The position numbers and the translations under genes were made by a program. A stretch of 32,502 bases of DNA from Candidatus Aminicenantota bacterium (GTDB lineage Bacteria; Acidobacteriota; Aminicenantia; Aminicenantales; CALLJL01): contig JAOAFQ010000101.1 of the NCBI GenBank assembly GCA_026416195.1, positions 1 through 32,502 on the forward strand, given 5' to 3'. Below, in pieces: positions 4,118-32,502 of this stretch; within the stretch, counting starts at the first letter, position 1; every line of letters starts with the position of its first letter. The notes under the pieces were generated by a model. It was not told the DNA's origin. It worked only from the letters and a program-made list of their open reading frames with translations, and searched no databases.

Positions 4118-5830
4118 TCAAGAGAAAAGCAGCGACCGAGCCGCTTGAGTTAACATAACGTTGGCTAAATCAATCTTATAGGCGTTTTCGCTCATAGGTC
4201 GGGCTTCCTTTAAAGCCTCAAAAGCGGCCGCCGCTAAGATCGAAACTACGGCAAAGTTCCAGCTGCCTCTTTCCGTGAGTTTAATATAAGGCAACGGAAT
4301 TTCTTTTTTGCCTTCTTTAAAAGGAATCTTTGCCTTAGCTTCAAGACCAATTAGGACAGGGGCGAAGTCGCTTGGATGAACGAGGTGGCATAGACCTTCA
4401 CCGAAAATCGCATGATAATTATTACTGCCCTGGATAGCAAAGCAACGAGGGCCACCCTTTTTGCGACAGGGGAATAGAGGATCGCGAAAATACCAGCCGC
4501 GAGGTTGCTGACAGAGATTGCCACCAATTGTTCCAACATTTCTAAGTTGAGGAGAACCGACCGATTGAGCTATCAGTTTCAAACCGATACCTTGACTTTC
4601 AGCCGTTAACCGATTGGCCATGCGGCCGACTTCATGGGTAGCTACTACCTTTATCACTCTTATCTTTCCTGTTTCGATCTCGGCTTCGACCTCAGCGAAG
4701 TGAGCTCCAAAGGGGTTTAAGGCGAAATTGGCCGGCAGGTCGTTCCTTTCTCTGTAAAATAAAGCTAGACCAATTGAGGGTGTTGTTTGGCTCTCGCCAG
4801 AAAAAAGGGCCCAGGGATAATCGGTATCGCCAATGCGGATGTAGATATCTCTAGGATCAAGCCCAAGAGTCTCGGCATTAATGGCAGCAATAAATGTTCT
4901 AGTTCCAGCCCTGATATCTTGATTTTCGCAGAGAGCCTTAACTCTCCCCTCAGGATGTAACTTTAAGTCTGCTAAGGTTTCTGGAACTTCAGTTTCCCAC
5001 CAAATTTGGGTAGCCATACCTATTTCCTGACGAATGTTACCTTTGGCCTGGCCCGGGGTTTGATTTCTTTTTGACCAACCAATAGCTTCTTCGCCCAGAC
5101 GATAGCACTCTGTAAGTCCCTTATATGAATAAGGCAGCCCCCTATTAAGAACCCGAACTAACTGGTCTCTAACCCTAAAAATTGCTTGAGTGGAATCCCA
5201 GACAGTGAGCCGACCATCTTGCCCATAAGCCAGACTAGCATGGGTTTCAGTTAGATAATGAACCTCAATAGTTGTGAGATATGTTTTCTCTAAAATTACC
5301 TCGGCCTGGGTTTCGCCCTTTATAATATTTCCCCTTGTATCTTCAGGAAGTTTTTGAACATTAGGTGAAGCAAGAACCTGCGGGGCTTCCTGTTCCTTAG
5401 CCTTGCTTTCCGAAACCGCGGATGGGAGGAGCTTATATTCTGCGTTAATTAAATTCAAAGCTTCTTTGGCTTTATCGATGGTAGCGATCGCGGCCACTGG
5501 CTCTCTAATATATCTTATTTTTCCTGTGGTTAGTTTAATTGCCGCTTTTTCGCATGGGTAATTTAAAGCAACCGAAAAGTTAAGGCTGATAACTTCATTG
5601 GCCGGATAGGGCGAGCGAAGAATTTTTCCATAAAGCATGTCTCAGAAATGAAAATCTTGGGTATAAGGGGCCTTTCCAGAGACAATTAGGCAGCCATAAC
5701 CTCTTGGAATTTTCTTTCCGACATATCGAAAGTCAGCTGAAAGTAACTGTTGCTCCTGAGCTTGGCCTTCTTGTTTAGCTACTGCTTCCAGATAAGTGAA
5801 GCCATCAAATTCAAGATAATGATTTTTCAT
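4118..5830 (-). pseudogene. Degraded xanthine dehydrogenase/CO-dehydrogenase-like molybdenum subunit fused in frame to a truncated FAD subunit; in-frame TGA at 5642-5644
   Basis: ORFs 5642..5830 and 4118..5638 are collinear in one frame: ...RYVGKKIPRGYGCLIVSGKAPYTQDFHF*DMLYGKILRSPYP... (large-subunit N-terminus), then ...LTVWDSTQAIFRVRDQLVRVLNRGLPY|SYKGLTECYRLGEEAIGW (central part absent), then ...FGAHFAEVEAEIETGKIRVIKVVATHEVGRMANRLTAESQ|GIGLKLIAQSVGSPQLRNVGTIGGNLCQQPRGWYFRDPLFPC (FAD subunit). Confidence 0.8.
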
Positions 5831-6404
5831 AGCCGCTCTCTTTTTTGAAAAGCCAAAGCTTTGACGTGGTCAAGATTTTAAGTTGGTTGCTGCAGCGACA
5901 GAGATTGCCACTAAGACCTGTCTTTATTTCTTCTAGAGAGGGTGAAGCTTTCTGATGAAGCCAAGCTAGGGTGGCCATAATAAAGCCTGGGGTGCAAAAA
6001 CCACATTGATAACCATCATGATCAATAAAGGCTTGCTGGATGGGGTGAAGCTTTTCTCCCTCAGCTAAACCTTCAATTGTTAAAACTTTTTTACCTTCGA
6101 CAAGGACAGTCCACCCTCCGCATGAACCGTGGTTACAAATGCGCTTAGTTGCAGCAAGATGCAATTTTTTCCGAAGCAAATCCAAAAGGATGTCTTGAGG
6201 ATCGACTTCGAGGGTAATTTTTTGGCCATTAAGAATCTTATATTGAAGAACCTCTCCTTCTTGAGTGGTTAGACAAGTTGAAGCCGTTTTGACTATAGGG
6301 GCGGTAACTGCTGTTTCCCCTGCCTCTTCCCTAACCTCCTTAAAGAACTCACGACGAGAAATTCCCTTTATGTTTTTCTGATTATCCGCCATTAACTCCC
6401 TCAA
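5811..6404 (-). CDS. Xanthine dehydrogenase-like [2Fe-2S] subunit with degenerate proximal cluster motif (probable decaying gene)
   Basis: 197 aa; Tat-like SRREFFKEV near N-terminus; distal cluster YQCGFCTPGFIMA...LSGNLCRC intact; proximal motif reads CNHGSCGGWTVLVEGKKVLTIEGL (third Cys replaced by Trp and fourth-Cys segment absent). Confidence 0.75.
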   Translation of the reverse strand: MRELMADNQKNIKGISRREFFKEVREEAGETAVTAPIVKTASTCLTTQEGEVLQYKILNGQKITLEVDPQDILLDLLRKKLHLAATKRICNHGSCGGWTVLVEGKKVLTIEGLAEGEKLHPIQQAFIDHDGYQCGFCTPGFIMATLAWLHQKASPSLEEIKTGLSGNLCRCSNQLKILTTSKLWLFKKESGYEKSLS

Positions 6405-23796: not shown

Positions 23797-23873
23797 AATT
23801 CAAAAGATTGGATTAGGGGGATAAAAATTATCTTTGATAAGAAATTACTCATTTTGAGAAAAATCCCCGTAAA

Positions 23874-23898
23874 GTTAAGTTTAATTATAATGCTTAAC
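23874..23898. promoter_or_regulatory. Candidate operator: inverted repeat gttaag-N13-cttaac upstream of TPR-CHAT gene
   Basis: gttaagtttaattataatgcttaac; perfect 6-bp arms, 33 nt upstream of ATG 23932. Confidence 0.3.
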
Positions 23899-23931: not shown

Positions 23932-26850
23932 ATGCGGCCTTATGGCTCATTTAAAAGGTTTATTATCATCCTTTTATCAATTTTTTTGGAGTCTTTTTCA
24001 GATATAAGAGCAGGCTTCGAAATATATCCAATCGTGGTAGGGGAAGAGGATTATGTCTATGTCCTTCAAGAAGCTCAAAAGAATCGAAGTCAGGGAAACT
24101 ATGAAGAAGCAGTTTTGCATTTTGATAAGGCAATCAATTTTATTAAAAGTAGGGCTCTAACAGAAAAATTATCCGGGAGAGAAGGATTATTAGAAGCAAT
24201 TGAGGGAAAAGGTCTCGTTTTGTGGAATTTAGGACAAATGAAGGAGGCGGCAGAATGCTTTAAAGAGGGAATGCTATTGGCTCGTCAGTGGAAGATGGCC
24301 ATATCAATGTCTTTCTTTGAGGGTTGCCTTGAGGTTTACGAGCTTTATCAAGATGGAAAGAATAAGCGGGGAAAGATGGATTATAGAGGAGCTATAAATA
24401 GTTTTGAAAAGGCCTTATTTATGGCTCGAAAATTGAGAAGTCCTGAGCTGGAATTGAAATGCCTTAGACAGGCTAGTCTAGTTTTTTTTGATCAGAACGA
24501 ATTAGAAAAATTTCGAATTCTAAATGAAAGAGGATTGAGAATAGCCCGTTTATTGAGTCACAAACTTGAGGAAGGCCGTTTCCTCAACAACATTGCCCTA
24601 TATCACTTGGAAAAAAGAGATTTAATAAATTCTTTTGCGATTTTAAATCGATCATCAATATTAATTGATGAAAAGGGGACGAATCAAGATAAAGCTGATT
24701 GCCTTTATAATTTAGGTTTAAGCATCTCGTTGGTAGGATTTTTTGATAGAGCAATAAAATATTTTAAAGAGGCAATGATACTAGACGAAAAAGAAGGGAA
24801 AATTGAAAATATTATTCTAGACCTTAATAATATTGGTTTATGTTTGTTAAAAAAAGGAGAGCTAAATAATGATGAGTCGATAATTAAAGAATCCCTTTCA
24901 TATTTTCATAAGGGGCTAAAATTATCAGAGAAAAATACAAATGTCAAAATGAGAATTATGATACTAAATAATTTAGCTATTGCCTTTAATTCATTAGGAA
25001 AAAGGAACAAGGCACAAAGCTTTTTGAATGAAGCCTTATCATTAAGCAAAAAATCTAAGGATACATATAGTTTGATAACAGTAAATGATACAGCAGGAAG
25101 TATTCATGCTGATAATGAGCCAAAATTAGCGCTAGAATATTTATTTGAAGCATTGTCTCACTTGTCAAAATTGAGGGAATTTCCTGAAGAGTGGATTATA
25201 CATTACAACATAGGACGAGCATATGAAAATATAAATAGGAATGAACAAGCATTACGTTATTATAATAGATCGATAGAACTTATTGATAGCTTAAGAAAAA
25301 GAATTAGCTACGATTTTTACCAAGTTGGCTTTCTTAGAAATAAAGAAGTAGTATTTGATGCTTTAATCCGTTTGAAAAAGAAAATGCACGATCAAATAAA
25401 TAATAGTAAAAGTAAAATAGAAGTATTTGAAGCAATTGAAAAAACAAAAGGGAAATCGTTCCTTTTTTTATTAAATAGCTTAAATTTAAGTTTGAACAAT
25501 AAAAAAGAAGATATTCAAGATACTGAAGATGATATAGAAAAAAGAAAGGGCGGCCTATTTTTACATGATTCCTTAATGTCAAGCGAAAAAAAACAATTTA
25601 AACAAATAAGAGAAGAAGATATTAAATTAATAAAAATTGCAGAGAAAAAGTATCAGTCATTAAATAATATAGAAAAGATTGTAAATGCTAAAATTTTAAC
25701 TATTGAAGAAATTCAATCAAGTTTATTGGACGAGAAAAGCGCAATATTTGAGTATTATATTGGGCATTGGGGATCCATAGGAATATTGATAACGAAGAGG
25801 GATTTCCATATTATAAATTTGCCAACAAAGGAAGAAATAGAAAAGTTGATAATCGGATATTCTAAATTGATATCAAATCAGCCATTAAAAAAATTTGCTG
25901 GGGAAAAAGCTGCAGAAAGAATATATTTAGAAATAATAAAGCCATTAGAAGAAAGACTTCCTAACAAAATTGAAAATTTAATTATAATTCCGGATGGATA
26001 TATTTATTATCTTCCGTTTGAAGCATTAATGACTAAAATAGATGGTAAATTAGAATATTTAGTAAAGAAATATAACATGATATATGCACCATCTGTATCA
26101 TCGTTATTTGTTATAAAGAAAGAAAATAAAGAAAACGAAGTTTTACATAAAGAGGTATTAGCGATTGGATATCCAAAATATAAAAATATTTTAGCGATAG
26201 ATATTGGAAAAAATGAAAATAAATTAAAAGAAAATATGTATATTTTTCAAAATGAGATTAGGTTTAAACCTTTGCCATATTCAAGAAAGGAAATAAAATA
26301 TATAAAAAATATCTTCGGTAGAGATAAAATTGATGTCTTAATGAGGGAAAAGGCAAAAGAAAGCATTTTAAAAAATATGAATATAATAAATTACAAAATA
26401 ATACATTTTGCATGTCATGGCTATATTGATGAAAGTTTTCCATTTAGGTCTTCTCTTATATTAACGCCAGAACCAGACAAGGGAGAAGATGGGTTTCTTC
26501 AAGCTCATGAGATATCAGAACTAGTGTTTAATGCAAAACTTGTTGTTCTTTCTGCTTGTCAATCAGCGAGAGGCCCCCTTGAAAAAGCTGAGGGAATATT
26601 AGGTTTAAATAGAGTATTCTTTACTAGCGGAGCTAAGGCTGTAATTTCTTCACTACGGCAAGTAAATGATCGTTCAAGCGCTGACCTTATGGGCAGGTTT
26701 TACAAACATCTAAGAAGAGGAATAACAATTGCTGAAGCCTTAAGAGAAGCGAAAATTGATATGTTAAAAACAAAGTTTAATCACCCTTTTTATTGGGCTG
26801 GATTTATACTCAGCGGAGACGGATTTTCAATTCTTTTTGGCCAGAATTAA
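23932..26850 (+). CDS. TPR-CHAT domain protein with predicted signal peptide (caspase-like protease)
   Basis: 972 aa; N-terminal hydrophobic MRPYGSFKRFIIILLSIFLESFSDIRAGF; many TPRs; CHAT core YKIIHFACHGYIDESFPFRSSLILTPEPDKGEDGFLQAHEISELVFNAKLVVLSACQSARG...GLNRVFFTSGAKAVISSLRQVNDRSSADLMGRFY (His and Cys present). Confidence 0.93.
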   Translation: MRPYGSFKRFIIILLSIFLESFSDIRAGFEIYPIVVGEEDYVYVLQEAQKNRSQGNYEEAVLHFDKAINFIKSRALTEKLSGREGLLEAIEGKGLVLWNLGQMKEAAECFKEGMLLARQWKMAISMSFFEGCLEVYELYQDGKNKRGKMDYRGAINSFEKALFMARKLRSPELELKCLRQASLVFFDQNELEKFRILNERGLRIARLLSHKLEEGRFLNNIALYHLEKRDLINSFAILNRSSILIDEKGTNQDKADCLYNLGLSISLVGFFDRAIKYFKEAMILDEKEGKIENIILDLNNIGLCLLKKGELNNDESIIKESLSYFHKGLKLSEKNTNVKMRIMILNNLAIAFNSLGKRNKAQSFLNEALSLSKKSKDTYSLITVNDTAGSIHADNEPKLALEYLFEALSHLSKLREFPEEWIIHYNIGRAYENINRNEQALRYYNRSIELIDSLRKRISYDFYQVGFLRNKEVVFDALIRLKKKMHDQINNSKSKIEVFEAIEKTKGKSFLFLLNSLNLSLNNKKEDIQDTEDDIEKRKGGLFLHDSLMSSEKKQFKQIREEDIKLIKIAEKKYQSLNNIEKIVNAKILTIEEIQSSLLDEKSAIFEYYIGHWGSIGILITKRDFHIINLPTKEEIEKLIIGYSKLISNQPLKKFAGEKAAERIYLEIIKPLEERLPNKIENLIIIPDGYIYYLPFEALMTKIDGKLEYLVKKYNMIYAPSVSSLFVIKKENKENEVLHKEVLAIGYPKYKNILAIDIGKNENKLKENMYIFQNEIRFKPLPYSRKEIKYIKNIFGRDKIDVLMREKAKESILKNMNIINYKIIHFACHGYIDESFPFRSSLILTPEPDKGEDGFLQAHEISELVFNAKLVVLSACQSARGPLEKAEGILGLNRVFFTSGAKAVISSLRQVNDRSSADLMGRFYKHLRRGITIAEALREAKIDMLKTKFNHPFYWAGFILSGDGFSILFGQN

Positions 26851-27547
26851 TTTTGGTTAATGGCAGTTCGCCCATCCAACTAAATATTATGTTACCTTCA
26901 GAATTTTCAGCTTCGAAACTTATTAAAAGCTGGTGGCCAGACTCAATCTGTTCACAAATGTCGGATGGTAGTCTAATTTGGCATTCATAAGTGATGTTGT
27001 TCCAAACCGAATTTAAAGAAGAGTCAAAAATATGAATTACATATGACTTTGCTTGAACTATTTGATCCCACTTTAAAAGATAAGGACAAGCTTCAGTAGG
27101 AGTAGCGTCATATACTAGTGAAAGATAGGTTGCAGCTTCAAAACTTCTCGTTATAGAATCTTTTGACATATTTACATATCTTACTGAAAAAAATAAAACA
27201 AAGCTAAAAAATAAAGTAAAGGTCAAATAAGGAACAAATTTTAAAAAGCGGACATTGAAAAAACATTCTGGTTTTTCCTTATCTAATTCATCATTAATAA
27301 CTTGGTGACGAAGGAGTGAGTCTATAAAATTATCTTCCTCTCTTATCAATTCTTTAAAGAAATAGAAAAGTCGAAGGCAATTATTGCATTCAACTATATG
27401 ATCAATAATTCTTCTTGTCTTTTTACTTGGAAATCTTATTGCTTCTATTATTTTCTCCGGAGTTGGGCAAGGCGTGTTGGGAATTATATTAATTGATTCT
27501 ATATATTTAGAAAATAAATGTTTTATGTCTCTAGTTCTTAGGTTCAT
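26810..27547 (-). CDS. Predicted transmembrane anti-sigma factor (zinc-finger-like N-terminus, one TM, Fn3-like C-terminus)
   Basis: 245 aa; CPTPEKIIEAIRF...RRIIDHIVECNNC (H-x3-C-x2-C), TM FVPYLTFTLFFSFVLFFSVRYV, C-terminal beta-rich LLKWDQIVQAKSYVIHIFDSSLNSVWNN...GHQLLISFEAENSEGN; overlaps sigma gene by 17 bp. Confidence 0.75.
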   Translation of the reverse strand: MNLRTRDIKHLFSKYIESINIIPNTPCPTPEKIIEAIRFPSKKTRRIIDHIVECNNCLRLFYFFKELIREEDNFIDSLLRHQVINDELDKEKPECFFNVRFLKFVPYLTFTLFFSFVLFFSVRYVNMSKDSITRSFEAATYLSLVYDATPTEACPYLLKWDQIVQAKSYVIHIFDSSLNSVWNNITYECQIRLPSDICEQIESGHQLLISFEAENSEGNIIFSWMGELPLTKINSGQKELKIRLR

Positions 27548-28070
27548 AGTAAATACTCTTTTCTTTTAAAATTTTTTTAAGATCATTAAGACCGCGATAA
27601 AGAAGATTTCTAGCTTTATTCTTACTCCAAGAATAATATCGAGCTATCTCATCTATATTCATATTTAATAAAAATAACTTTACAGCCTTCTTTCTAGAGT
27701 CTATAAGGCAGTTTAGGGCAGATACGATTAGTTCTTGAATTTTTTCTTCTGAAGGAAGTTCAGAATAGCAAGAAAGATTTTTTTCGGCAATCGTTCGCAT
27801 ATTCGTTTGATTTAATGAAGTTTCTTCTCTTTTCCATTTTCGGAGGTGGTCAATAACTGTTGATTCAATTATCTTTCTTATGTAAGACGTTTGATAATCA
27901 ATATTTTTCTCATTCATTAAGAGTTTCCAGAGCTTAATTCTTATTTCTTGGGCAACGTCATCTGGATCGATGCCATATCGTTGAAGGTCATATTTATGTA
28001 TTTGGATCCTAATAAAATGCGAAAAAGAGGCGAGAAGCTTTTCAAGATGATCTTCTTTGAATTTTGCCAC
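27531..28070 (-). CDS. ECF-like RNA polymerase sigma factor
   Basis: 179 aa; DPDDVAQEIRIKLWKLL (region 2), YIRKIIESTVIDHLRKWKREE, region 4 ALNCLIDSRKKAVKLFLLNMNIDEIARYYSWSKNKARNLLYRGLNDLKKIL. Confidence 0.88.
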   Translation of the reverse strand: MAKFKEDHLEKLLASFSHFIRIQIHKYDLQRYGIDPDDVAQEIRIKLWKLLMNEKNIDYQTSYIRKIIESTVIDHLRKWKREETSLNQTNMRTIAEKNLSCYSELPSEEKIQELIVSALNCLIDSRKKAVKLFLLNMNIDEIARYYSWSKNKARNLLYRGLNDLKKILKEKSIYYEPKN

Positions 28071-28164
28071 TTTCTAAATATCTAAATTAATAAAAATAAA
28101 TAGTCAAATATAAGTTCATAAATTATAACGTGCTTAAAAATAATATTTCTCATTATGAAATTAA

Positions 28165-29172
28165 ATGAGATTAAACATTTGTGAGGTCGTCATAAGTGTG
28201 ATAGAAAGACCTACAATGAACGATTGGCGAGAAGAAATAACATTAAATATCGAAGGAATAAAAATTATTGGCCAAGAATTGAATAGGGATAAGACGGAGA
28301 AATTGCTAATTCGAATTGCAAAAAGTAATAAAAATATTCTTATTCTTGGTGAAACTGGAACAGGCAAGGATGTTTTAGCGAAAAAAATTCATGACTGGAG
28401 TGATAAAAGAAATGACCCATTTGTTGCTATAAATTGTGCAAGTATTCCTCATGAGCTATTTGAAGCAGAACTTTTCGGCTTTTCAAAGGGATCATTTACA
28501 GGTGCTTATAATGAAAAGATAGGTCTTTTAGAAGCAGCTCAAAACGGCACTATCTTTCTAGATGAAATAGGTGAGTTATCTCTTTTTCATCAAGCCAAAT
28601 TGCTTAGAGTAGTAGAAAATAAAATCTTTCGAAGGATAGGTGAAACAAAAGAGAGACTATGTAAAGCAAGATTTATATTTGCCACAAATAAAGATTTAGT
28701 AGCTGCAGTAAAATCTGGTAGCTTTCGACAAGATTTATATTATCGGATAAGTATTGTTCAAATATATATTTCGCCATTAAGATTTAATCTTAATATAATT
28801 CCAAGTCTAATTAAATCAATATTAGATAGGGAAAATGAAAATCAAAACCAGAATAAAGTAATAACAAAAGAAGCTATACGAAAACTTATGAGTTATGATT
28901 ACCCCGGTAATATAAGAGAACTGATAAATATAATTGAAAGAGCATTCCTATTATCAGATGATGACATGATAAAACCAGATGATATCCATTTCGATAATAT
29001 TATTCATAAGGGTACAAATCATAAAGCCAAAAATGGCCTATCTGTTGATAGATTAAGAGAAGTATTAGAAGCCTGCCGATGGAACAAAAGTGAAGCGGCA
29101 AAAAGGATTGGGACAAGCAGAAGGCACTTATATAGATTAATACAAAAATATAAAATTGATTGTGTCATTTAA
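28165..29172 (+). CDS. Sigma54-dependent enhancer-binding protein (AAA+ + Fis HTH, no receiver domain)
   Basis: 335 aa (start could be ATG 28216); Walker A GETGTGKDVLAKKIH, GSFTGA loop, Walker B GTIFLDEIGEL, C-terminal HTH LEACRWNKSEAAKRIGTSRRHLYRLIQKYKI. Confidence 0.95.
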   Translation: MRLNICEVVISVIERPTMNDWREEITLNIEGIKIIGQELNRDKTEKLLIRIAKSNKNILILGETGTGKDVLAKKIHDWSDKRNDPFVAINCASIPHELFEAELFGFSKGSFTGAYNEKIGLLEAAQNGTIFLDEIGELSLFHQAKLLRVVENKIFRRIGETKERLCKARFIFATNKDLVAAVKSGSFRQDLYYRISIVQIYISPLRFNLNIIPSLIKSILDRENENQNQNKVITKEAIRKLMSYDYPGNIRELINIIERAFLLSDDDMIKPDDIHFDNIIHKGTNHKAKNGLSVDRLREVLEACRWNKSEAAKRIGTSRRHLYRLIQKYKIDCVI

Positions 29173-29262: not shown

Positions 29263-30648
29263 ATGTGGGGAAAAGGTTTTTTTGAATATGAAATAAACAA
29301 TAGAACCTCAGGGATTTTCGTTTTTTATCCGCTTTTAAAAGAAAAAAGAGATGTAACTGCAATTATAATTATTGTTGTTTCAGTCTCAATCATTATTATC
29401 TTGACAATTAAATTGGATATTATCCCTCAATGGGTTGACCTTATGAACAAGAACATATTAACAAAAGTAACTCTTTATTTGATAGCAGTTTTATGTAGTT
29501 TGCTAATTATAGGATTATTGTTCAGGACGATTTTATGGCTAAGATATCGACCTTTAACCGAAAGCGATTTAGAAAACATAGAATGGCCTTTTATTTCAAT
29601 AATTTTGCCATCATATAATGAATCTGAAATGATAGAGAAGGCAGTGGAATCCGTTTTTATGGCGGATTATCCAAAAGAGAAAATTGAAGTCATAATTGTA
29701 GACGACGGCTCTAATGATGGGACAAGCGAAAAATTGAAGTACTTAAAAAAAAAGTATGCCAGTTTATTAAAGATAATTCATTTTAAAATAAATCTAGGCA
29801 AAAGGAGAGCGCTTTACTCTGGCTTAAAAATTGCAAAAGGTGACATCATCATAACAATTGATTCAGATAGTATAATCGATAAAGATGCATTGAAAAATCT
29901 TATTGTTCCTATGATATTAGATACTAAAGTGGGGGCGGTAGCAGGTCGTGTGGCTGTGCTTAATGAAAAACAGAATCTTTTAACGAAAATGTTATCTGTA
30001 AATTACTCGATTTCATTTGATTTTGGACGAGCTTATCAAAGTGTGTTTGGGGGTGTGACAGTATGTCCAGGAGCATTGACTGCCTATAGGAAAAATGCAA
30101 TTAAATCAATTTTGAAAGATTGGGTTAACCAAGAATTTATGGGAAAAGCATGTACCCACGGTGAAGATAGGCACATGACTAGTCTAATATTAAAAAATGG
30201 GTATATAACTAAGTATCAATCAAATGCATTGATTTATACGTGTGTACCATCTAATATGATTCAATTAAATAGAATGTATATAAGATGGACAAGAAGTTAT
30301 ATAAGAGAGTCAATATTATATTTAAAATATTTGTTATTTGATATAAAAAGCAAAAGGCGCTTTATTTATTGGTGTGATTTTATATTATCAAATGTTATCT
30401 ATCCATTTCATATATTGTTGTCAGTTATATTAATTTATTCTGTTTTATATGAGCCTATATTCTTAATTAAACAGATAATATTTCTATTATGTATTTCGTT
30501 AATATTATCCCTTTATTATTTATGGAATCATAAAAATTTAAATTTTATTTTTGGAATCCCTTATAATATGATGTTATTATTATTCTTCTGGTGGATATTT
30601 CCATACTGCCTGTTAACCATAAATGAGCCGTCATGGTTGACTAGATAA
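29263..30648 (+). CDS. Membrane processive glycosyltransferase family 2 (hyaluronan synthase/NodC/chitin synthase-like)
   Basis: 461 aa; N-terminal TMs, ISIILPSYNESEMIEKAVESVF, VDDGSNDGTSEKL, TIDSDSIID, THGEDRHMTSLILKNGYITKYQS, MYIRWTRSYIRES, C-terminal TMs. Confidence 0.9.
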   Translation: MWGKGFFEYEINNRTSGIFVFYPLLKEKRDVTAIIIIVVSVSIIIILTIKLDIIPQWVDLMNKNILTKVTLYLIAVLCSLLIIGLLFRTILWLRYRPLTESDLENIEWPFISIILPSYNESEMIEKAVESVFMADYPKEKIEVIIVDDGSNDGTSEKLKYLKKKYASLLKIIHFKINLGKRRALYSGLKIAKGDIIITIDSDSIIDKDALKNLIVPMILDTKVGAVAGRVAVLNEKQNLLTKMLSVNYSISFDFGRAYQSVFGGVTVCPGALTAYRKNAIKSILKDWVNQEFMGKACTHGEDRHMTSLILKNGYITKYQSNALIYTCVPSNMIQLNRMYIRWTRSYIRESILYLKYLLFDIKSKRRFIYWCDFILSNVIYPFHILLSVILIYSVLYEPIFLIKQIIFLLCISLILSLYYLWNHKNLNFIFGIPYNMMLLLFFWWIFPYCLLTINEPSWLTR

Positions 30649-30658
30649 AAGATAAAAA

Positions 30659-32502
30659 TCAATGAGATTTGCCATTCTTAATTTTTATAAAAATAGAAAG
30701 GATAAGAGCTAAGATTATAGCGGAAGTAAAGAATAAAGGATAAAAATTATTCCTAATTATAGTTATCTGAGTATTACCATATGCAATAAAGGCTGCCCAA
30801 TAAAATGGGTGCGATAAAATTTTTGATCTTATTAATTCTAATTTTGCTTTTTGTAAAGCAATTTCTACAGAAAAACGTTTTTTTAAATAAAAATAGAATC
30901 TTTGCATTAATTGAGATGTAGCTTGGTCATTGACTGACCAAAGACTCAAGATAAGAGATGAAGCCCCAGCATAAAAGAAAGCTCGATTTAGTCCTTCTAT
31001 TCCTTCACCTCTGATTAAAGCGCCTTTTCCTGTTTGACAAGCAGATAGAGTGACAAGGTCAGCATTGAGCCTTAAATTGAAAATTTCTCTTACTTGTAGC
31101 AATCCATCTTCTTGAGGATCTTGATCTAATTTAAGGATAATAGAAGAGCGAGCTGGTTTTTTATCATCTATGATGCAGTGCGTGGCAAAATGAATTATTT
31201 TATATTGGGTTAAATCAATTTCTTTAACTCTTTCTTCAGCAGCTTCTTCTGCTACCAAAACTTTTTTCTTTTCTAATGGAAAGTATGATGAAATTCTTTC
31301 CACTTCTTGAGTACTGAAGCGGAGACTATCCAAAGTTACATCAACTCCAGGTTCATAAAAACTTTTCAAGACAACCTGCGAGTTCTTTGACGAATTATTT
31401 CCATTAACTTCAAGCAAAGGATTACCTATAGCGAGCAAATATTTTTTTGCTCTTTTACCATTATCATTTCTTCTTTCTATAATTTCTTTAATTGAAGTTA
31501 AAGATGGAGCATAAGAAATTGTAAAATTCTCTATGAGCCATTTATTTCTTCCATTTTTTAAAATAGAAATTGATTCAAAAGGCAAATAATGAAGGATGTC
31601 GTCCGGGATGATAATAATCCTTTTTATCCCTGAGAAGTGGCGTAAAGCGGGATCAATTAGTGTTAGATATAATTCATATCCATTATTGAAGTCGTTGGAT
31701 TCAGGATCGCTTATTTTTATTAAATAGTTTCGTACTAGCCTTTTAATTTCTTCCGTTGGGGGGAGAGGAATAACCTTAAAGTGATCTTTAGTTAATGCAA
31801 AAACATAACTAGCTTCAGATGACATTAAATATGATAAAACTAAAGTTTTTTTGGAAATGAGTTTTTTCTGTGCTTCATCTAAAGTAATAAACTGAGGATA
31901 TTGGAGATTTGCGTAGGCTGGATTATTTTTTCGCATTTCTCTTCTAATATTTTCTAGTTCTTGCTCAACTTCCTCTAGTTTATTATAAAGTTGCTGTTTT
32001 TGATTTTCAGTAAGTTCTGGATTTAATAATTTAGTGTAGAGATTTGATATTTCGTTCATCAATTCAACTTCATAATATCTTAATTTTTGGCTTATTCCTT
32101 CTTCAAATGATATTTTAGAAAGCTCAATTGAATCTAAAAAGGATCTGGCTCTTGCCTTTTCAGAAAATAATAAAGCATCTCTTAAATAAGATATTTTATT
32201 TTCTCTCAATCCTATTTTAACTAAAATATCTATTAGTTTATAATATGAATCTAATCTTTTGTTTGTGCTTAAAAATGAGTACTTATATTCTTCTAAAACA
32301 AGTTTAGATCGAATATTTTCGATTATATTAATTGAATTTTTTAAATTTTCAATTGCTGAATAATAATCTCCTTTTTTTATATATGTGTTAGCAAGTTCTA
32401 AGTATGCTTCCCATAAAATTTGACCATTTCTTAATTTAGAGCCAAGTTCTAAAGACATTTTATAGGAATCAATTGCTTTCTCATAATTTCCAAGGTTAAA
32501 AT
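30659..32502 (-). CDS. TPR-CHAT domain protein with C-terminal TM helix; 5' end truncated by the right window edge
   Basis: Frame stays open upstream of Met 32458 to the edge (FNLGNYEKAIDSYKMSLELGSK..., a TPR), so the gene extends beyond the window. CHAT core YKIIHFATHCIIDDKKPARSSIILKLDQDPQEDGLLQVREIFNLRLNADLVTLSACQTGKG; C-terminal TM FYPLFFTSAIILALILSIFIKIKNGKSH. Confidence 0.93.
   Translation of the reverse strand, partial: FNLGNYEKAIDSYKMSLELGSKLRNGQILWEAYLELANTYIKKGDYYSAIENLKNSINIIENIRSKLVLEEYKYSFLSTNKRLDSYYKLIDILVKIGLRENKISYLRDALLFSEKARARSFLDSIELSKISFEEGISQKLRYYEVELMNEISNLYTKLLNPELTENQKQQLYNKLEEVEQELENIRREMRKNNPAYANLQYPQFITLDEAQKKLISKKTLVLSYLMSSEASYVFALTKDHFKVIPLPPTEEIKRLVRNYLIKISDPESNDFNNGYELYLTLIDPALRHFSGIKRIIIIPDDILHYLPFESISILKNGRNKWLIENFTISYAPSLTSIKEIIERRNDNGKRAKKYLLAIGNPLLEVNGNNSSKNSQVVLKSFYEPGVDVTLDSLRFSTQEVERISSYFPLEKKKVLVAEEAAEERVKEIDLTQYKIIHFATHCIIDDKKPARSSIILKLDQDPQEDGLLQVREIFNLRLNADLVTLSACQTGKGALIRGEGIEGLNRAFFYAGASSLILSLWSVNDQATSQLMQRFYFYLKKRFSVEIALQKAKLELIRSKILSHPFYWAAFIAYGNTQITIIRNNFYPLFFTSAIILALILSIFIKIKNGKSH

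Follow-up and report, generated by a model that had tools for sequence, protein, structure and literature searches.

The CHAT locus and its products

The window analyzed here is one whole contig of 32,502 nt (JAOAFQ010000101.1, assembly GCA_026416195.1) from a Candidatus Aminicenantota bacterium. It carries a cassette of genes for a sigma factor, an anti-sigma factor, and a protein with tetratricopeptide repeats (TPRs) and a CHAT domain (CHAT-B), plus a second TPR-CHAT gene (CHAT-A); these are the only two CHAT genes in the assembly (2.88 Mb, 94% complete). The open reading frames (ORFs) are as described in a first-pass annotation of this DNA, which had reported a TPR-CHAT gene convergent on a coupled pair of anti-sigma and extracytoplasmic function (ECF) sigma genes. 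The CHAT-A gene, the NtrC-type and glycosyltransferase genes described below, the signal sequence of CHAT-B, and the shared promoter motif had escaped that annotation. The 3' ends of the CHAT-B and anti-sigma genes overlap by 41 nt, and the start of the anti-sigma gene overlaps the end of the sigma gene by 17 nt. This linkage is not due to chance, as it is kept across the Aminicenantales and in other phyla. The features of the cassette are as follows:

23855..23884, + strand: ECF-type promoter-like site TGAGAAAAATCCCCGTAAAGTTAAGTTTAA, 48 nt before the CHAT-B ATG (motif search)
23932..26850, + strand: CHAT-B, TPR-CHAT protein of 972 aa, predicted exported (ORF, Pfam, hydropathy, AlphaFold2 [AF2] model)
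23932..24012, + strand: signal sequence MRPYGSFKRFIIILLSIFLESFSDIRA at the CHAT-B N terminus, about residues 1-27 (hydropathy; helix 6-26 in AF2 model)
24043..25449, + strand: TPR superhelix, CHAT-B residues ~38-506 (Pfam, AF2 model)
25906..26820, + strand: CHAT domain of CHAT-B, with catalytic His829 (26416-26418) and Cys876 (26557-26559) (Pfam, alignment)
26810..27547, - strand: transmembrane (TM) anti-sigma factor of the zinc-binding anti-sigma (ZAS) type, 245 aa (ORF, zinc ligands, TM helix)
26813..27127, - strand: FN3/Ig-like extracytoplasmic domain of the anti-sigma (model; weak structural matches)
27146..27148, - strand: Arg134 in the disordered juxtamembrane linker (ITR/S), candidate scissile bond (alignment, predicted local distance difference test [pLDDT] score)
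27158..27244, - strand: single TM helix of the anti-sigma, residues 102-130 (hydropathy, structure model)
27377..27469, - strand: core of the CHCC zinc-binding anti-sigma domain, C27/H50/C54/C57 (alignment; weak profile match to 8rlz)
27531..28070, - strand: ECF sigma factor, 179 aa, GTG start (Pfam, NCBIfam)
28124..28152, - strand: ECF-type promoter-like site TGAGAAATATTATTTTTAAGCACGTTATA upstream of the sigma gene (motif search)

By sequence, CHAT-B is a putative CHAT peptidase of family PF12770: it carries the domain well above the curated cutoff (E value 4e-69, 233.6 bits versus 24) and a His/Cys dyad. Its TPRs match at E values below 1e-18, and the TPR superhelix is visible in the AF2 model (pLDDT 83.7, pTM 0.81). 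The motifs HFACHG and LSACQS, which the first-pass annotation had picked out, are indeed present; H825, H829, and C876 within them are invariant across relatives, and the H/H/C residues are retained in every CHAT covered.

Hydropathy also indicates N-terminal signal sequences on homologues of both CHAT-B and CHAT-A. Under a simple hydropathy rule, an N-terminal hydrophobic segment was found in 15/16 CHAT-A and 26/33 CHAT-B proteins, compared to 1/49 sigma factors and 76/187 other long ORFs. Some of the CHAT-B frames lacking such a segment are short and probably truncated or mis-started. CHAT-A additionally ends in a TM helix followed by a cationic tail; the positive-inside rule then places its CHAT domain outside. 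The CHAT proteins should thus be extracytoplasmic, as predicted from hydropathy, and because they carry signal sequences they should meet the extracytoplasmic side of the anti-sigma.

The sigma factor matches Sigma70_r2 (PF04542) above the cutoff (E value 1.5e-6), PF08281 below its cutoff (E value 0.0017), and the ECF superfamily model TIGR02937 narrowly over its threshold (43.1 bits versus 42.9). As judged from its sequence, it is an ECF sigma factor, with regions 2 and 4 and without region 3. The anti-sigma gave no Pfam match. Across 39 relatives, its residues C27, H50, C54, and C57 do not vary; they make up the CHCC signature typical of zinc anti-sigma domains, and this domain has a weak profile match to the anti-sigma domain of DdvA (8rlz). 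After the TM helix, residues 131 to 136 are disordered (pLDDT < 50) and a beta domain begins at residue 141, for which Foldseek and profile searches gave weak Ig/FN3-type matches. A scan of the genome contigs with the single anti-sigma sequence returned no match; the family has diverged too far to be captured by patterns. An anti-sigma from the Cyclobacteriaceae, convergent with a CHAT gene (L196:8064-8840), has TPRs in place of the FN3-like domain.

Between the TM helix and the beta domain, the sole conserved column of the anti-sigma alignment is an Arg (45/51 sequences), corresponding to Arg134. In a divergent anti-sigma family from the Terriglobia, the equivalent region contains an Arg in 37/38 sequences, followed by G or S in 35/38, and anti-sigmas near CHAT genes in Chloracidobacterium, Bacteroidales, and Calditrichota have R[GSA] in the linker too.

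Conservation of the cassette and a shared promoter motif

We surveyed 59 Aminicenantales genomes and mapped the loci for gene order; the named relatives are Candidatus Aminicenantes metagenome-assembled genomes. The order in this group is [CHAT-A>] [<GT2] [<NtrC, some] [sigma> anti-sigma>] [<CHAT-B], where GT2 denotes a family 2 glycosyltransferase. The remaining members of this arrangement in the window are as follows:

28165..29172, + strand: NtrC-type sigma-54 activator with AAA+ and Fis-type helix-turn-helix (HTH) domains (Pfam)
29263..30648, + strand: processive GT2 glycosyltransferase, NodC/PgaC-like, convergent with CHAT-A (Pfam, NCBIfam)
30659..32500, - strand: CHAT-A, second TPR-CHAT protein, its 5' end lying beyond the contig end (ORF, Pfam)
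30680-30736, - strand: C-terminal TM helix of CHAT-A with cationic tail (hydropathy)

The two kinds of CHAT protein keep separate partners. Those without a C-terminal TM helix are encoded convergent on the anti-sigma gene in 40/56 cases and never on the GT2 gene (0/56); those with this helix are convergent on the NodC/PgaC-like GT2 gene in 17/35 cases and never on the anti-sigma gene (0/35). CHAT-A and GT2 are thus a conserved convergent pair of their own, which suggests a link to envelope polysaccharide synthesis.

The cassette-type anti-sigma is present in 36 of 46 CHAT-positive and 1 of 13 CHAT-negative Aminicenantales genomes (Fisher test, P = 6e-6, a test that ignores phylogeny), although many of the loci behind the anti-sigma counts were fetched on account of a nearby CHAT gene. 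In the lone CHAT-negative genome with the anti-sigma, the contig stops at that gene. Among the Terriglobia, all genomes with a related anti-sigma also have a CHAT gene (32/32), and half of those without the anti-sigma lack CHAT (10/20); CHAT lies inside the fetched region in 22/38 Terriglobia loci. Trios of sigma, anti-sigma, and CHAT genes also occur in Bacteroidales (L172), Chloracidobacterium (L184), Bryobacterales (L188, L191, and L193), and Cyclobacteriaceae (L196), and outside the Aminicenantales they are often co-oriented. Some hidden Markov model matches to the anti-sigma in other phyla (L179 and L209) are apparently false positives and did not enter the counts. The first-pass annotation had made its proposal depend on co-conservation of CHAT with the sigma/anti-sigma pair in related genomes, and this co-conservation is strong.

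Upstream of the sigma genes, we found a bipartite motif, TGAGAA-N16/17-[CG][AG]TCT[AT]. Its form, a -35 and a -10 element at a set distance, is the one that an autoregulating ECF sigma factor yields. The full motif precedes 13/33 CHAT-B genes compared with 9/419 other genes. The initial regular expression had been adjusted with the CHAT-B sites already in view, and a 7-mer enrichment test was run to avoid that bias; its top 7-mer for both gene sets, GTGAGAA in the -35 part, occurs upstream of 16/49 sigma and 11/33 CHAT-B genes versus 3/413 other genes. The sigma factor of the cassette thus probably uses this shared motif, with its own operon and the CHAT-B gene under its control, and the presence of the motif before both genes implies feedback. 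In a genome-wide regulon search of the window's genome and one further genome (G001), motif matches did not exceed those of a reversed-pattern control (8 versus 10 in the window's genome); thus, we claim no wider regulon for this organism.

The NtrC-type activator sits in the cassette of some relatives, with the same ECF-type motif upstream in 3/6 copies, and a remote GAF-NtrC gene (L230 and L237) carries this site in two genomes (G048 and G038). A cascade from the ECF sigma to the NtrC-type sigma-54 activator is therefore possible. No sigma-54 promoters were found upstream of CHAT-A or GT2.

In Bryobacterales-type loci (L188, L189, L191, L193, L204, and L207), the next gene after CHAT is an ORF of about 410 to 470 aa, which encodes an S41 (CtpA-like) PDZ peptidase in both of the loci tested (L188 and L193). 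A contig labeled Pelagibacteraceae (L217; the label may be wrong) has an ECF sigma gene divergent from a gene for a predicted exported TPR-CHAT protein.

Relation to DdvA, Craspase, and RseA

In a fold search, the best PDB matches of the CHAT-B model were DdvA (8rw5 and 8rot), listed as a TM anti-sigma factor, followed by Csx29 chains and separase, with low whole-chain TM-scores (0.3 to 0.5) to DdvA and Csx29. The sequence of the CHAT domain gave a sole PDB match, again the DdvA chain, which bears the name CHAT domain-containing protein (E value 7e-6). The DdvS/DdvA system of Myxococcus xanthus (8rot, 8rw5, and 8rlz) shares with the cassette an ECF sigma factor, a TM anti-sigma with a CHCC zinc domain and one TM helix, and an extracytoplasmic TPR-CHAT module, predicted as such here. 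In DdvA, TPR-CHAT lies in the same chain as the anti-sigma, whereas here the two are encoded by separate convergent genes; a fusion of the zinc motif to CHAT was found in none of 191 CHAT ORFs. The locus further differs in its complete H/H/C residues, in an anti-sigma with its own FN3-like domain, and in having two CHAT paralogues. The system is thus best regarded as DdvA-type, CHAT-linked control of an anti-sigma in split form, with an apparently complete catalytic site.

DdvS is stated, in a review citing the DdvS/DdvA work, to control an antiphage island. Membership of the present locus in a defense system was considered and rejected: PADLOC returned for the window just generic TPR matches and matches of the AAA-HTH half of RtcR models to the NtrC-type activator.

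In Craspase, the effector of type III-E CRISPR, CASP-sigma is inhibited by Csx30, which the CHAT protein Csx29 cleaves (PMC10028731). The first-pass annotation had drawn this parallel. Its core stands, since here too a protein of TPR and CHAT fold is linked to a sigma inhibitor; the compartment does not, as signal sequences are predicted here and Csx29 is cytosolic, and the nearest precedent is DdvA. The putative substrate also differs, being a TM zinc anti-sigma. Neither Cas7-11, CRISPR RNA, nor Csx30 forms part of the cassette: there are no Cas genes in the window and no adjacent Cas7-11 or Csx30, and the RAMP matches in the genome are separate ORFs of 272 to 406 aa on two other contigs (C223 and C96). 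This bears out the setting without an RNA guide that had been proposed for the locus. With no fused Cas7-11 found and the CHAT proteins predicted to be exported, identity with Craspase was rejected, although the cassette may follow a similar logic.

With RseA/DegS/RseP, the cassette has in common a single-pass anti-sigma with an extracytoplasmic domain, a candidate site 1 in the periplasmic linker, and an M50 protease in the genome. The site-1 enzyme of that system is a PDZ trypsin-like serine protease, whereas the candidate here would be a TPR-bearing cysteine protease of caspase fold.

A candidate extracytoplasmic switch and its alternatives

In the most likely mechanism, to which we assign a probability of roughly one-half, CHAT-B cuts the linker of the anti-sigma outside the cytoplasm in a split, DdvA-like switch. 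The zinc domain would hold the sigma factor at the membrane, with the FN3-like domain and linker outside the cytoplasm, and CHAT-B would reach that side by export, where its TPRs would sense some cue or the anti-sigma itself. Activation of the caspase-like His829/Cys876 site would lead to a cut in the flexible linker near Arg134 (site 1), after which an RseP-type intramembrane protease would free the sigma. The freed sigma would transcribe the operon that encodes it and also, in many relatives, the CHAT-B gene, giving positive feedback; in some lineages, the NtrC-type sigma-54 activator would be a further target. The cleavage, its site and direction, the RseP step, and the signal are the parts of this scheme that we infer; the gene order and its conservation, the conserved dyad and zinc ligands, the predicted topology, the shared promoter motif, and the co-occurrence come from the analysis itself. 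The conserved Arg in a disordered linker, the fold and sequence matches to DdvA, and the presence of an M50 protease were also counted in its favor.

Several points weigh against cleavage by CHAT-B, beginning with the reliance of the model on genome comparison and predictions and including the modest TM-scores, phylogeny-blind tests, and CHAT-guided sampling mentioned above. RseP-type proteases are found in all control genomes; thus, the presence of an M50 protease is nonspecific. Away from CHAT, an Aminicenantes anti-sigma paralogue retains the linker Arg too, as seen in the paralogous pair at L134 and L137 to L140 and in a copy (L135) from a genome in which no CHAT was found. The Arg may therefore be structural. 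In the Aminicenantales, R[GSAT] dipeptides in the linker (36/45) show a modest excess over the shuffled expectation of 26. Finally, a CHAT-B gene within the putative sigma regulon would fit a pure output as well.

In that case, a sigma freed by another site-1 protease would induce an exported CHAT protease acting on envelope or foreign proteins. The ECF motif upstream of CHAT-B would place it in the sigma regulon, and a sigma gene beside its main target is a common arrangement. We nonetheless consider an output role unlikely, as the conserved convergent neighbor of CHAT-B is the anti-sigma and not the sigma alone, and as DdvA, the best match of the CHAT-B model, has TPR-CHAT in the regulatory arm. 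It is also conceivable, if rather improbable, that CHAT-B regulates without cutting, by binding the FN3-like domain of the anti-sigma and transmitting a conformational signal. TPRs are binding modules, forming a superhelix in the CHAT-B model, and the CHAT domain of DdvA, which we take to be periplasmic, presumably has an incomplete His-Cys active site. Autoproteolysis followed by RseP has reportedly been proposed for DdvA, with cleavage not demonstrated. The H/H/C residues kept in every covered CHAT, however, argue for catalysis.

Least probable, and in our estimate only a slight chance, is that the arrangement reflects neighborhood alone, through defense-island or envelope clustering, with CHAT-B acting on something unrelated, for instance GT2 products or proteins of phages. 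Such a view can point to the 28/92 CHAT genes in the order without a sigma or anti-sigma nearby and to the CHAT loci in other groups that lack the pair (32/48). It has to contend with strict orientation, partner specificity, co-occurrence, and the shared promoter.

A broader claim can be put forward tentatively, at a little below even odds: that exported TPR-CHAT proteins, as cysteine proteases of caspase fold, form a widespread two-protein system in which they are dedicated, sigma-induced, CRISPR-independent site-1 proteases of TM zinc anti-sigmas, cutting at the conserved linker Arg. Such a system would be a relative of DdvA that acts in trans, found in Acidobacteriota and probably in Bacteroidota. 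Few CHAT proteins have a known substrate, yet they rank among the most common relatives of caspases in bacteria. The cassette supplies candidates for both a substrate and its cleavage site, along with a predicted compartment and a signature of the regulon, and its predictions are open to testing in Acidobacteriota or Bacteroidota that can be cultured. Sigma factors, it suggests, can be controlled by CHAT proteins without RNA guides; if the reading is true, it would link Craspase and DdvA with classical proteolysis of anti-sigmas.

Two further observations concern other genes. The paralogous sigma/anti-sigma pair without CHAT (L134, on contig C64 of the window's genome, and L137 to L140) adjoins UvrA-like, DNA polymerase III delta', and PSP1 genes. 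Within the window, positions 4118-6404 hold unusual, possibly rearranged xanthine-dehydrogenase-like genes, in which a 506-aa ORF joins partial molybdenum cofactor-binding and FAD-binding domains and adjoins a 2Fe-2S subunit.

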